DNA of 35,179 nucleotides from a virus: IMG/VR virus record IMGVR_UViG_3300051212_001892, positions 1-35,179 of that record; one strand, 5' to 3'. Within the stretch, counting starts at the first letter, position 1; each line of letters opens with the position of its first letter. Both the position numbers and the translations under genes were made by a program. Of this stretch, positions 5,227 through 18,063 are shown piece after piece. The notes beneath the pieces were generated by a model. That model had not been told where the DNA came from. It was given only the letters and a program-made list of their open reading frames with translations, and did not search any database.

Positions 5227-5823
5227 TTACTGAATACCGTGAACAAAAACGTGTCTTCCAATTCTAATAAAAGTTATTTTAACGTTTTTCTGACCATTAA
5301 AGTTAGTGGTTATTGACCAAGTTTTCTTTCCAGGATTTGCGTCGCTTTGTGAAACTACAAGCTTCACCCATGAAGATTTGTTTGATCGAGAAGCTTTTGC
5401 GTCAGGATTGCAATAAAGGTATATTTTTTTTGCTTGATCCTCTGAAAGACCAGTTCCTTGAGTAAAAACAGAATAATTAACAGCAGGAATGGCTGTTATT
5501 GTCGCTCCTTGCATACATCTATTGTATGCGGTTAAAAAACTAGGACAATCTTTAGCGCTATTCCATACAGAGAATTGAAATGGAGAAAGGCAAGCTATAA
5601 CCTCATTGTTAGCTCCAGCGTACAGAGGATTTGGTTGACGCATATAAGCTGGGCCGTTCGCCCTATTAGCTATAACATTCCTTACCGCGGTTTGTCCATC
5701 AACTGGTTCTCCTTTGCACTCACCATTAAGCGTTGCTAATATTACGTCAGTCTCGCTTTTAGTACAAATAAAAGACTCAATAGCAGACATAGCAAATTTT
5801 AATTTGTCTAGAATATTTTTCAT
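5227..5823 (-). CDS. Endolysin, SleB-type cell wall hydrolase
   Basis: 198 residues, the only leftward gene. The Hydrolase_2 (SleB/CwlJ) core starts near residue 28 with LATLNGECKGEP, followed by DGQTAVRNVIANRANGP. Glu35 is the expected catalytic acid and the AV..VI.NR helix is typical. Further matches are QPNPLYAG and SPFQFSVWN. These enzymes cleave the glycan strand of peptidoglycan as lytic transglycosylases. No signal peptide or membrane segment is seen, so release needs a holin-like protein. The C-terminal 60 residues look beta-rich and could bind the wall. A minus-strand GTGTATA lies 14 bases before its ATG, suggesting its own late promoter. It sits between terminase and portal, far from the other lysis candidate at 16559. 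A virion-borne role is possible but less likely. Confidence 0.88.
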   Translation of the reverse strand: MKNILDKLKFAMSAIESFICTKSETDVILATLNGECKGEPVDGQTAVRNVIANRANGPAYMRQPNPLYAGANNEVIACLSPFQFSVWNSAKDCPSFLTAYNRCMQGATITAIPAVNYSVFTQGTGLSEDQAKKIYLYCNPDAKASRSNKSSWVKLVVSQSDANPGKKTWSITTNFNGQKNVKITFIRIGRHVFVHGIQ

Positions 5824-15302: not shown

Positions 15303-16520
15303 ATGTCCACTAGACTATTAAACAATAACAGACTTTTTTACGCAATTGAGGCAATAGGATTTGCTCCATTTAGCGGTGTAGGAACAACTCAAGCCACTCT
15401 ACAGTCAGGCTTTCTAATGGCCTCTGGAGTTCAGAGCGTTGGTATAGACACATCTTTTAACATTGAGCAAGTCTTCCAGTTAGGTCAGTTAGATATTTAC
15501 GCTAACATGGAAAATATTCCAAACGTTGAAGTAACTGTAGAAAAGGTTCTTGATGGAACTTCTTTACTTCAGCACTTAGCAACACCATTAACTGGCCAAG
15601 GTTCTGAGCTTCTCTCTAGATACAGCAACCAGAGATGCGATGTTGCTTTTAACGTATATAGAGACTACTTATCATCAGCTAGCGGCGGTGGCACATCAGC
15701 TGCAGGTGATCAAAACATTCATCAGTGCTATATGAGCGGAATGTATGTAAGCTCAATCAACTTCAATTTACCAACTGATGGAAACATGACAGAGTCCATA
15801 ACACTAGTTGGTAATAGTAAAAACTGGAAAGCCGGAGCTGCTGTTGGTACAGGTATAATGGATTTTAGACCAAAACAATCCCAGAGTTCTGCTCCTCCAT
15901 TAAGCGGCTTAGTGATGAGACGGCAGAACATAGTGTTTGGTACTGGAACCACGGATTCAGACACTAACGTTTCTTATCTACCAAAAGAAATTCCAGGTAT
16001 AGATTCTACAGGATTCAATAGGGTTTATGGGGCAAGCACTCTAGCAACTGGAGTTTACGCTGGGTTCGGCGCTCACGTTCAAAGTATTCAGGTTTCTGCA
16101 GACCTCGGAAGAACTGAGCTTTTTGAATTAGGAAGACGCGGTCCTTATCACAGATACCTAGACTTCCCAATCGAAGTAACTTGTGCAATTGAAATAATTG
16201 ATACTCAGGGCGACTCAATAATTGCTAGAGAAGAGTCTCAATCAAATCTAACCGACCAAAGAATATATCTTGTTCTTGAAGACGGGACAACTATAGATTT
16301 AGGTAACAAAAACAGACTTACTTCTGTCAATAATTCAGGTGGAGACACCGGTGGAGGAAACAGAACATCTACCTACAATTACAGCAACTTTAACGCGTTA
16401 ACAGTAACTAGAAGAGCAGGCTCTGGCGTTTTAGGATTAGGTCCTGCGGCTCCTGGTAAAGCAGATCCAGCGGATGCAGTTGACGCAGATCCGTTTGAAT
16501 TTGGTGAAGTAGCAACTTAA
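15303..16520 (+). CDS. Major tail tube protein with internal duplication
   Basis: 405 residues, about twice a single tail-tube fold. Two similar segments are visible: VQSVGIDTSFNIEQVFQLGQ at about 43-62 and VQSIQVSADLGRTELFELGR at about 257-276. Each is followed by an aromatic loop (LDIYANMENIPNVEV and GPYHRYLDFPIEV) and a strand (VTVEKVLDG; VTCAIEIID). This is what a duplicated tube domain looks like. In phage T5, the tube protein pb6 is such a duplication and forms trimeric instead of hexameric rings. Position before the chaperones and tape measure supports the role. The C-terminal 40 residues are Ala/Pro/Asp-rich and probably disordered. A promoter-like motif precedes the gene and a hairpin follows it. 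Confidence 0.8.
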   Translation: MSTRLLNNNRLFYAIEAIGFAPFSGVGTTQATLQSGFLMASGVQSVGIDTSFNIEQVFQLGQLDIYANMENIPNVEVTVEKVLDGTSLLQHLATPLTGQGSELLSRYSNQRCDVAFNVYRDYLSSASGGGTSAAGDQNIHQCYMSGMYVSSINFNLPTDGNMTESITLVGNSKNWKAGAAVGTGIMDFRPKQSQSSAPPLSGLVMRRQNIVFGTGTTDSDTNVSYLPKEIPGIDSTGFNRVYGASTLATGVYAGFGAHVQSIQVSADLGRTELFELGRRGPYHRYLDFPIEVTCAIEIIDTQGDSIIAREESQSNLTDQRIYLVLEDGTTIDLGNKNRLTSVNNSGGDTGGGNRTSTYNYSNFNALTVTRRAGSGVLGLGPAAPGKADPADAVDADPFEFGEVAT

Positions 16521-16528
16521 TTTTAAGG

Positions 16529-16552
16529 TGCGATGGGCTAATACTCATCGCA
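16529..16552 (+). other. Hairpin between tail tube and lysis gene
   Basis: TGCGATG (16529-16535) pairs perfectly with CATCGCA (16546-16552). A G-T wobble and one G-C pair extend the stem, leaving a CTAATA loop. No T-tract follows, so it is not a standard intrinsic terminator. Its 3' end lies six bases before the ATG at 16559, which has no Shine-Dalgarno. It could protect the tail tube mRNA from 3' decay or hinder initiation at 16559. Confidence 0.6.
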
Positions 16553-16558
16553 TCACTT

Positions 16559-16990
16559 ATGACAGATAAAATATTGTTTTGCCTTTTATCATCCGCTATA
16601 ATATGCGGTTGTAGGCAAGACAAAATAACTCAGGAAAAACCACTAATCGGTGAAAGCTTAGTTTTTCATGAATTTGAGGAATTAAAAGAAACAACTCACA
16701 CGGAAAATTCAATATCCGATTTGAAAGATAAGAGAAATATTAATTTTGGTGAGTCCTCAGAAGCACTTAGGCCAGAACCACAAATTCAGTCTATTTCAGA
16801 AAAATCAGAAGTACAAGAAAAAATAGAGTTAAAAACAATCTACAATGAAGAAAGGAGTGAAAAAATGGAATTAATATTAAGCTCAACACTTGGAACAATT
16901 TTTTATACGATTACCGTTTTTGTTGCTGGAGCGCTTGTTGGAGCGCCGCTTTGGAATTGGATTTCCTCAAAGTTGCCATGGAATAAATGA
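16559..16990 (+). CDS. Putative u-spanin (lysis lipoprotein with C-terminal membrane anchor)
   Basis: 143 residues. The N-terminus is a lipoprotein signal: a Lys, then FCLLSSAIICGC with lipobox Ile15-Cys16-Gly17-Cys18, so Cys18 would be lipidated in the outer membrane. Residues 19-102 are polar, charged and probably extended or helical in the periplasm. Residues about 105-130 form one transmembrane segment (GTIFYTITVFVAGALVGAP) ending in Lys-containing KLPWNK, which fits a cytoplasmic C-terminus. Lipid anchor plus C-terminal membrane helix is the architecture of the unimolecular spanin (phage T1 gp11, similar length), which fuses inner and outer membrane at lysis. The ATG has no Shine-Dalgarno and follows a hairpin. 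It overlaps the next gene by ATGA. Alternative: a superinfection-exclusion lipoprotein. Confidence 0.6.
   Translation: MTDKILFCLLSSAIICGCRQDKITQEKPLIGESLVFHEFEELKETTHTENSISDLKDKRNINFGESSEALRPEPQIQSISEKSEVQEKIELKTIYNEERSEKMELILSSTLGTIFYTITVFVAGALVGAPLWNWISSKLPWNK
16851..16857 (+). promoter_or_regulatory. Strong internal ribosome-binding site
   Basis: AAAGGAG lies inside the spanin-like gene, seven bases before an in-frame ATG at 16865. It is one of the two or three best Shine-Dalgarno sequences in the window, while the full-length start at 16559 has none. Confidence 0.6.
16865..16990 (+). CDS. Nested 41-residue membrane peptide (internal start, holin-like)
   Basis: An in-frame ATG at codon 103 of the spanin-like gene would yield 41 residues: Met-Glu, a hydrophobic segment (LGTIFYTITVFVAGALVG) and a short Trp/Lys tail (WNWISSKLPWNK). 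It is preceded by AAAGGAG at ideal spacing. A small single-pass peptide with small-residue face (AGALVGA) made from a lysis gene could act as a holin or a modulator. Phages commonly regulate lysis with dual starts, as in lambda S105/S107. Expected topology is N-out, C-in by charge. There is no homology evidence. The alternative is that the purine-rich stretch is only coding sequence for EERSEKM. Confidence 0.35.
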   Translation: MELILSSTLGTIFYTITVFVAGALVGAPLWNWISSKLPWNK

Positions 16991-18063
16991 GTAAAAAAAG
17001 CAATATCGAAATGAAATTGCGCCAGATAGTATCTGGCTTTTTTCATATAAAATTTAAAAACAAACTTTTTAAGTTTTTTGAGCCTACAAACGCTCTTTAT
17101 TCAGAAGTAGCATTTCATACAGAGTCTTTATACGAAGATTTAAAGGTCGAGGGCTTCTTAACTGAAGAAGAAGAAGAGCAGATCCTGAAGGACAGAGGTT
17201 TATGGTCTGATGAAAAAGAAAAAAATCTTAAGCAAATGCAACAGGATCTAGAAAAACTTTTATCAGAAAGACACAAGTATAAATATCAATCTAAGGCAAT
17301 AGCCTCTATAGACAAAGCAATAAAAACCCTAGAGGAATCTATAAAGCAGTTGCTTGATATAAGAGGTTCGCTTTTTTATCACACAATTGAATATCAAAAG
17401 TCTTATAGAACAAATGTAATACTTATAAGCGAGTGTTTAAGAAATAGAGATAACACTAAGGTTTGGTCTTCTTTTGAAGAACTAGAAAATAACGTTTCGG
17501 CAAGTGAGATAGATGAATTGATAGTTTTAACTTCAAAAAATAGATGCACAACTGCTGAAATAAGAAAAATGGCTAGAACCGAACCTTGGAGAACAGTTTG
17601 GAAAACGGCTTGTAAAACATCTAGTAATATATTTAACAAGGCCATAACAGACATAACAAAATCTCAATACGAGCTTTGCTATTGGTCCAACGTTTATGAC
17701 TCGGTTTACGAAAGCTCTGATTATCCAGGACAGGAAGTAATTGACAACGATGAAATGTTAGATGACTGGTTTATATTGCAGTCAGAAAAATATGGAAAAT
17801 CGAAAAAAGAAAATAGTGAATTTACTCAAAATAAAAAAATAGCAAACGCTTCTGAGGTTTTTATGGTTGTAGATACTCCTGACGATGCAAAAAAAGTGTA
17901 TTCAGAATTGAACACTAGCAACGCAGAGGAAATAATCAAAAAAAGGATGGCTAAGATAGATGAAAAAGGACATGTTGCTGAACACGAATTTGCGGACGTT
18001 CAGCAAAACATGCAGATAGAGCTTAATAAACTAAATTCCAAGGCTGCAAATGGAAAAAGATAA
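16987..18063 (+). CDS. Tail assembly chaperone-like protein A
   Basis: 358 residues, starting on ATGA with the lysis gene. Mostly helical: after a short N-terminal part (KFKNKLFKFFEPTNALYSEV) come SLYEDLKVEGFLTEEEEEQI and LKDRGLWSDEKEKNL, a coiled-coil stretch and NTKVWSSFEELENNV. The same order of elements occurs in the 217-residue protein at 18368 (EGFFLEAEIENIIKERG; EKVWDTFDDYKNDI), so the two look paralogous. Position between tube and tape measure is where siphophages encode chaperones that coat the tape measure until the tube forms. No slippery sequence joining it to the next gene was found. A terminator-like hairpin lies in its first codons. Assignment rests on position and paralogy. 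Confidence 0.55.
   Translation: MSKKSNIEMKLRQIVSGFFHIKFKNKLFKFFEPTNALYSEVAFHTESLYEDLKVEGFLTEEEEEQILKDRGLWSDEKEKNLKQMQQDLEKLLSERHKYKYQSKAIASIDKAIKTLEESIKQLLDIRGSLFYHTIEYQKSYRTNVILISECLRNRDNTKVWSSFEELENNVSASEIDELIVLTSKNRCTTAEIRKMARTEPWRTVWKTACKTSSNIFNKAITDITKSQYELCYWSNVYDSVYESSDYPGQEVIDNDEMLDDWFILQSEKYGKSKKENSEFTQNKKIANASEVFMVVDTPDDAKKVYSELNTSNAEEIIKKRMAKIDEKGHVAEHEFADVQQNMQIELNKLNSKAANGKR
17021..17043 (+). terminator. Terminator-like hairpin inside the start of chaperone A
   Basis: GCCAGA (17021-17026) pairs with TCTGGC (17032-17037) around TAGTA, followed at once by TTTTTT (17038-17043). This is a compact intrinsic-terminator shape located 34 bases into the coding sequence, which encodes Gln-Ile-Val-Ser-Gly-Phe-Phe. 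It could attenuate transcription after the tail tube and lysis genes. The six-pair stem is modest, so only partial termination would be expected. Confidence 0.5.

Follow-up and report, generated by a model that had tools for sequence, protein, structure and literature searches.

A u-spanin-like viral gene with a conserved internal start that very probably yields a second, free membrane peptide

The question raised by this locus is whether one reading frame is made into a single protein or into two. Within the window (the whole 35,179-nt stretch of viral DNA analysed, IMG/VR record IMGVR_UViG_3300051212_001892), a frame with the layout of a unimolecular spanin (u-spanin) contains, well inside its coding sequence, an in-frame ATG behind a strong Shine–Dalgarno sequence. 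The elements concerned are:

16559-16990, + strand: full-length ORF, 143 aa, with a u-spanin-like layout; lipobox and architecture recur in four distinct sequences
16851-16857, + strand: internal Shine–Dalgarno AAAGGAG
16865-16990, + strand: nested ORF, 41 aa, a member of a small membrane-peptide family with stand-alone homologues
16889-16945, + strand: transmembrane helix common to both products, from hydropathy and as an AlphaFold helix (pLDDT ~79-89), and thus present in the short form also
16928-16942, + strand: AGxxxG motif within that helix (peptide residues G22 and G26), found in 28 of 29 family members

The internal signal consists of AAAGGAG, a 7-nt spacer (TGAAAAA) and an ATG at 16865-16867, which is codon 103, in frame, of the ORF starting at 16559; all of this is present exactly as the initial annotation had claimed. 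The nested ORF specifies MELILSSTLGTIFYTITVFVAGALVGAPLWNWISSKLPWNK (41 aa) and ends at a stop (16988-16990) common to both forms. The duplex of the internal Shine–Dalgarno with the 16S tail has an energy of −8.2 kcal/mol, stronger than that of all but two of the 27 gene starts compared, and the RNA around the start is unstructured (−2.1 kcal/mol). The pattern AAGGAG-N4-9-ATG occurs once on the + strand of the window, at 16865. As shuffled sequences give about two such sites per window (1.96 expected in the whole window, 0.024 in the ORF at 16559-16990), the motif somewhere in 35 kb is modest and by itself not surprising; it is the place and the conservation that make it strong. The remaining genes of the window contain 141 ATGs that lie internally and in frame, and just 2 of these have a comparable Shine–Dalgarno (core of at least 5 nt).

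Relatives in which the same two parts are fused were found by scans with the full protein and with the neighbouring genes, and all are metagenomic. They make up a small clade of four distinct sequences: that of the window and L010 (99% identical across the ORF); L005; L006, which is the same as L008, L009, L011, L012 and L029; and L007, which is the same as L013. In all four, an ATG occupies the matching codon and is preceded by GGAG at a distance of 6-8 nt, and no relative was encountered that keeps the protein and loses the internal Shine–Dalgarno or ATG (0 of 4). Since the residues encoded by the Shine–Dalgarno differ (RSEK, QEKK, KEKK and GDKK) and the GGAG falls in three codon phases, the conserved entity, judged on these alignments, is the nucleotide signal and not the encoded protein. 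The N-terminal lipoprotein part shares 26-32% identity between the main lineages (26-28% in the pairwise comparison; 72% for L005 against L007), and the last 41 residues are 76-98% identical among the fused sequences and 76-93% between those main lineages. Between L005 and L007, dN/dS is 0.50 for the N-terminal part and 0.02 for the nested part; across all pairs the former is fast-evolving, with values of 0.08-0.86 that lie below 1 throughout. A change-point fit places the boundary at residue 102/103, with 11 of 116 columns invariant before it and 32 of 42 after it (log-likelihood gain of 33).

Elsewhere in IMG/VR, the nested 41 residues correspond to a stand-alone, single-helix protein of 37-50 residues, with homologues that start at the same Met as the nested ORF in L003, L014, L017 and dozens more loci. 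L003 holds a free 40-aa homologue with ATAAGGAG, whilst L017 has one of 41 aa with AAAAGGAG, right after a separate lipoprotein gene whose stop lies 1 nt before the ATG of the small gene; L014 has a free 41-aa homologue and no lipoprotein gene. Profile searching of IMG/VR returned 45, and then 204, confirmed stretches (204 in one scan), and a Shine–Dalgarno core of at least 5 nt was seen for 82 of 84 distinct peptides, the fused ones included. Among the peptides read, lipoprotein fusion occurs only in the clade of the window. As the short product is a stand-alone family in other viruses, descent supports the internal start in addition to its motif; together with the conserved Shine–Dalgarno and ATG, this favours the separate single-helix peptide that had been proposed.

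Invariant or nearly invariant features of the peptide are G10, F19, A21-G22-A23, G26, P28, L29-W30, W32, P38 and W39. Net charge is higher on the C-side in 29 of 29 members, for which reason an N-out/C-in orientation is predicted by the positive-inside rule. The family was not detected among 50,697 named phage records, had no match in bacterial (GTDB) genomes and gave nothing significant against Pfam and NCBIfam models; weak matches to phrog_16957, of unknown function, were obtained for 13 of 29 members (best E 0.0025). Matches to Roseobacter/Sulfitobacter phages (19 residues, E 3-9) were taken as chance. Several loci were considered as further fusions and set aside: L076/L077 show a long open frame upstream, yet another frame of that DNA is occupied by a 221-aa gene; the open frames upstream in L040, L048, L083 and L130 hold no lipoprotein; and the long tblastn alignments of L172 and L174, both stand-alone, cross stop codons.

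The surroundings of most stand-alone members hold genes for exonuclease, cytidyltransferase, Holliday-junction resolvase or primase-helicase, or else virion genes. Lipoprotein genes are their direct neighbours in L017, L093-L096 and L084/L085/L088/L097, amounting to few independent contexts. In L093-L096, L115, L118 and L046 the small peptide gene comes after that of a lipoprotein with about three additional hydrophobic segments; in L093-L096 the two genes overlap by ~20 nt and may form a two-gene cassette. Unannotated u-spanin-like lipoproteins with a C-terminal helix also occur within 3 kb of the peptide gene at L003:2990-3319, L064:4511-4822, L065:4667-5032, L076:3749-4348 (− strand) and L038:5525-6070 (− strand), none of them with a significant PHROG match.

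The direction of change can be approached through the two genes that flank the frame:

15303-16520, + strand: upstream gene, 405 aa, from its position probably a tail protein; its synteny holds in fused and unfused relatives alike, and the tree was built from it
16987-18063, + strand: next gene, 358 aa, whose start overlaps the shared stop (ATGA); the same gene follows the peptide in L005-L007, L014 and L017

Both L014 and L017 are unfused at the same syntenic place, between homologues of these two genes. The tail-gene tree joins the fused viruses and L014 (100/99), with L017 next (86/88), such that L014 groups with the fused viruses, the fork among them being open, and L017 lies outside. Given this tree and the many stand-alone members, the best reading of the sequences is that the fused state is derived from a stand-alone gene, with some room left for fission, or for loss of the lipoprotein in L014. 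By analogy, the clade looks like the u-spanin route in which a lipoprotein gains a C-terminal transmembrane domain.

With regard to the long form and its start, three further features are relevant:

16610-16612, + strand: lipobox cysteine, residue 18 (IICGC; PROSITE PS00013), with Arg at +2 and no later Cys
16525-16528, + strand: AAGG, a possible split Shine–Dalgarno of the long form, suggested by sequence and fold and by analogy to T4 genes 25 and 38
16527-16554, + strand: 11-bp hairpin between AAGG and the ATG at 16559 (−17.2 kcal/mol, z −5.5)

From its N-terminus, the long form comprises a lipoprotein signal, a charged periplasmic stretch of ~90 residues, a C-terminal transmembrane helix and a short basic Trp/Pro tail. 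The spanin-like label given to the full gene thus agrees with a layout of lipobox, Cys-free stretch and C-terminal helix. All four distinct long forms match the PS00013 lipobox pattern, lack a periplasmic cysteine, have a single C-terminal transmembrane helix and place 92-103 residues between lipid and helix; an RPxPEP motif is conserved. As the +2 residue is not Asp in any of the four, they are expected to reach the outer membrane. An AlphaFold model of the long form, built from 4 sequences, has a mean pLDDT of 57, with confident helices just at the signal and the C-terminus. No homology of the long form to a u-spanin family already described was found in Pfam, PHROG or phage records, which does not exclude a u-spanin since these proteins are very diverse. 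Likewise, the gene lies in the tail-gene region and not in a lysis cassette, ~11 kb from an endolysin-like gene; T4 spanins also lie apart, and so this distance does not exclude a u-spanin either. Conversely, the L006-type relative possesses a separate u-spanin-like gene, and the long form therefore need not be a spanin. The sequence evidence supports a u-spanin-like anatomy and makes the long form a candidate member of the u-spanins. The endolysin-like gene (5227-5823, − strand) encodes an apparent cell-wall hydrolase (Hydrolase_2, E 5e-5, just under the Pfam cut-off) and lies, at a distance from any lysis cassette, between the terminase and the head-region gene that comes next. Two matches of the full ORF were left unused: Pfam HlyE (E 0.21), which is below any threshold, and the phrog_689 'holin' (E 0.014), which spans linker and helix and is not obtained again with the peptide of 41 residues.

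The ATG at 16559 had been described as following a hairpin and having no Shine–Dalgarno. The hairpin is indeed there; the second statement holds for the linear sequence only, in which this start has the weakest Shine–Dalgarno of the 27 gene starts compared (+1.9 kcal/mol). At the foot of the hairpin lies AAGG, 30 nt from the ATG linearly and ~6 nt from it with the hairpin looped out, and by analogy the long form may start via this hairpin-split Shine–Dalgarno. The stem is unchanged in the near-identical L010, where the sole change is in the loop, and the hairpin is absent in L005-L007; in L005 and L007 an ordinary AAAGGA precedes the long-form ATG.

Taken together, the reading we favour, and regard as likely, is of one frame with two starts, in which a lipoprotein gene became fused to a small membrane gene that existed beforehand and whose start was retained. 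Comparison shows the last 41 codons to be a small gene for a single-helix membrane protein, one that has its own Shine–Dalgarno where it stands alone, and very probably two proteins with a membrane helix in common are made from the same DNA. The long product from 16559, possibly initiated through the split Shine–Dalgarno, would be an outer-membrane lipoprotein with the C-terminal helix as its inner-membrane anchor, that is, an outer-to-inner-membrane tether of the u-spanin type. A free 41-residue peptide would be made also, probably in greater abundance than the long form. Carrying the same AGxxxG helix, the two products may associate in the inner membrane, and the relative use of the two starts could determine how many helices are tethered and how many are free.

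Each half of this reading has a counterpart in which only one product matters. It could be held that the short peptide alone is functional, the upstream lipoprotein ORF being a decaying or rarely translated leader, as the weak linear signal at 16559 behind its strong hairpin and the fast divergence of the N-terminal part would suggest; this is nonetheless quite improbable, as four distinct sequences have kept the frame free of stops and the lipobox conserved, the RPxPEP motif persists, pairwise dN/dS stays below 1, and L005 and L007 have AAAGGA before the long-form ATG. That the full-length protein alone is made, with the internal Shine–Dalgarno and ATG an unused leftover, is a highly improbable account. 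Whilst a fusion would leave the old signal in place for a while, here the signal has persisted as the residues and the codon phase around it turned over, in proteins whose N-terminal parts are 26-32% identical, and it is stronger than nearly all gene starts of the window.

More speculative is the proposal that the short form is a built-in regulator, pairing with the long form via the AGxxxG helix and thereby delaying or spacing the outer-to-inner-membrane tether until lysis. The shared helix and its widely kept motif are consistent with this, as are the heteromeric long and short endolysin products already known (PMC9430671), but both peptide and motif predate the fusion and so did not arise for regulation; we consider the proposal doubtful. 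The initial annotation also suggested a nested spanin regulator; that the peptide arose in such a role finds no support, since it stands alone in most viruses carrying it, mostly away from lysis genes. A version that respects this order of events, in which the fusion created a u-spanin-type tether and the retained start supplies free helices that pair via AGxxxG and control its timing or strength, is similarly tentative.

It is, lastly, unlikely that the nested peptide is the holin of this phage or a holin/antiholin-like timer. Its small size, single helix and basic C-terminus would suit such a role, a lipoprotein gene lies next to the stand-alone member in several contexts (L017, L093-L096 and L084), and single members give weak matches to holin profiles (phrog_443, E 0.11; phrog_920, E 0.12). 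Against this, no holin family profile matches the peptide significantly, the best values being E ~0.1 in single members, and no linkage to endolysin or lysis genes was found across family members, whose neighbours are mostly DNA-metabolism or virion genes. A holin role, as originally suggested, is thus not supported for a peptide that is a stand-alone gene in most carriers, mostly away from lysis genes. The accompanying argument that no other holin candidate is visible in the window reflects an edge effect, as the window is a fragment and relatives carry holin-like genes just beyond its edges. On the right, a near-identical relative, G001 (IMGVR_UViG_3300042861_002562; 93% nucleotide identity over the last 2 kb), encodes a 70-aa protein with a coiled coil and a C-terminal helix, starting 80 nt beyond the window's right end (L144:2096-2308); it is XhlA/holin-like by layout, with weak profile matches, and has a homologue at L146:10222-10434. 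On the left, G002 (IMGVR_UViG_3300042326_002433) encodes a 145-aa multi-helix protein that matches phrog_38283 (E 8e-18, unknown function) and, after it, a lipoprotein of 81 aa whose helix is C-terminal (L145:1463-2148). They lie ~1.4 kb to the left of the gene homologous to the first one in the window; from their sequences the two look like a holin and u-spanin pair, and the lipoprotein may be a further spanin candidate beside the fused gene.

In-frame nested starts are already known in phage genes, with a precedent in endolysins (PMC9430671); in the present gene the short product can also be recognised independently, as a gene family that stands alone in many other viruses. The clade offers a plausible route to u-spanin-like proteins, in which a lipoprotein gains an inner-membrane anchor by fusion, and it draws attention to a family, large and uncharacterised, of membrane peptides ~40 residues long that environmental viruses carry. 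Should the tentative version hold in which free helices control the tether, the gene would regulate itself and make two products for envelope disruption, built around a peptide family not described before.

Amongst known systems, lambda S (S105/S107) likewise has two starts in one membrane-protein gene and a shared transmembrane sequence, although its products are 2 residues apart, against 102 residues and an entire lipoprotein domain in the present gene. Endolysin genes such as that of LysP7951, and others, also have internal starts in frame (Pinto et al. 2022, PMC9430671); in these, as here, long and short products have one frame and a common stop and the short one is the C-terminal part; the present gene differs in specifying a lipoprotein/membrane protein and in having a short form that is a separate gene in most relatives. 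In T4 genes 25 and 38, a hairpin between Shine–Dalgarno and AUG brings the distant signal to working distance (PMC3014915), whereas the split site here is predicted only, with one near-identical relative in support. The long form resembles u-spanins such as T1 gp11 in its N-terminal lipobox, C-terminal transmembrane helix and Cys-free periplasmic stretch, periplasmic cysteine being absent from all 58 u-spanins (Kongari et al. 2018, PMC6139136); it differs in its want of homology to named families, its place in the tail-gene region and its internal start, and a literature search, with most subscription journals outside its reach, found no u-spanin with an internal start. That an o-spanin might gain a C-terminal transmembrane domain after a stop-codon mutation was termed 'speculative' by Kongari et al. 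(2018, PMC6139136); the fused clade looks like a similar case, though its transmembrane domain is recognisable as what was seemingly a pre-existing small gene.
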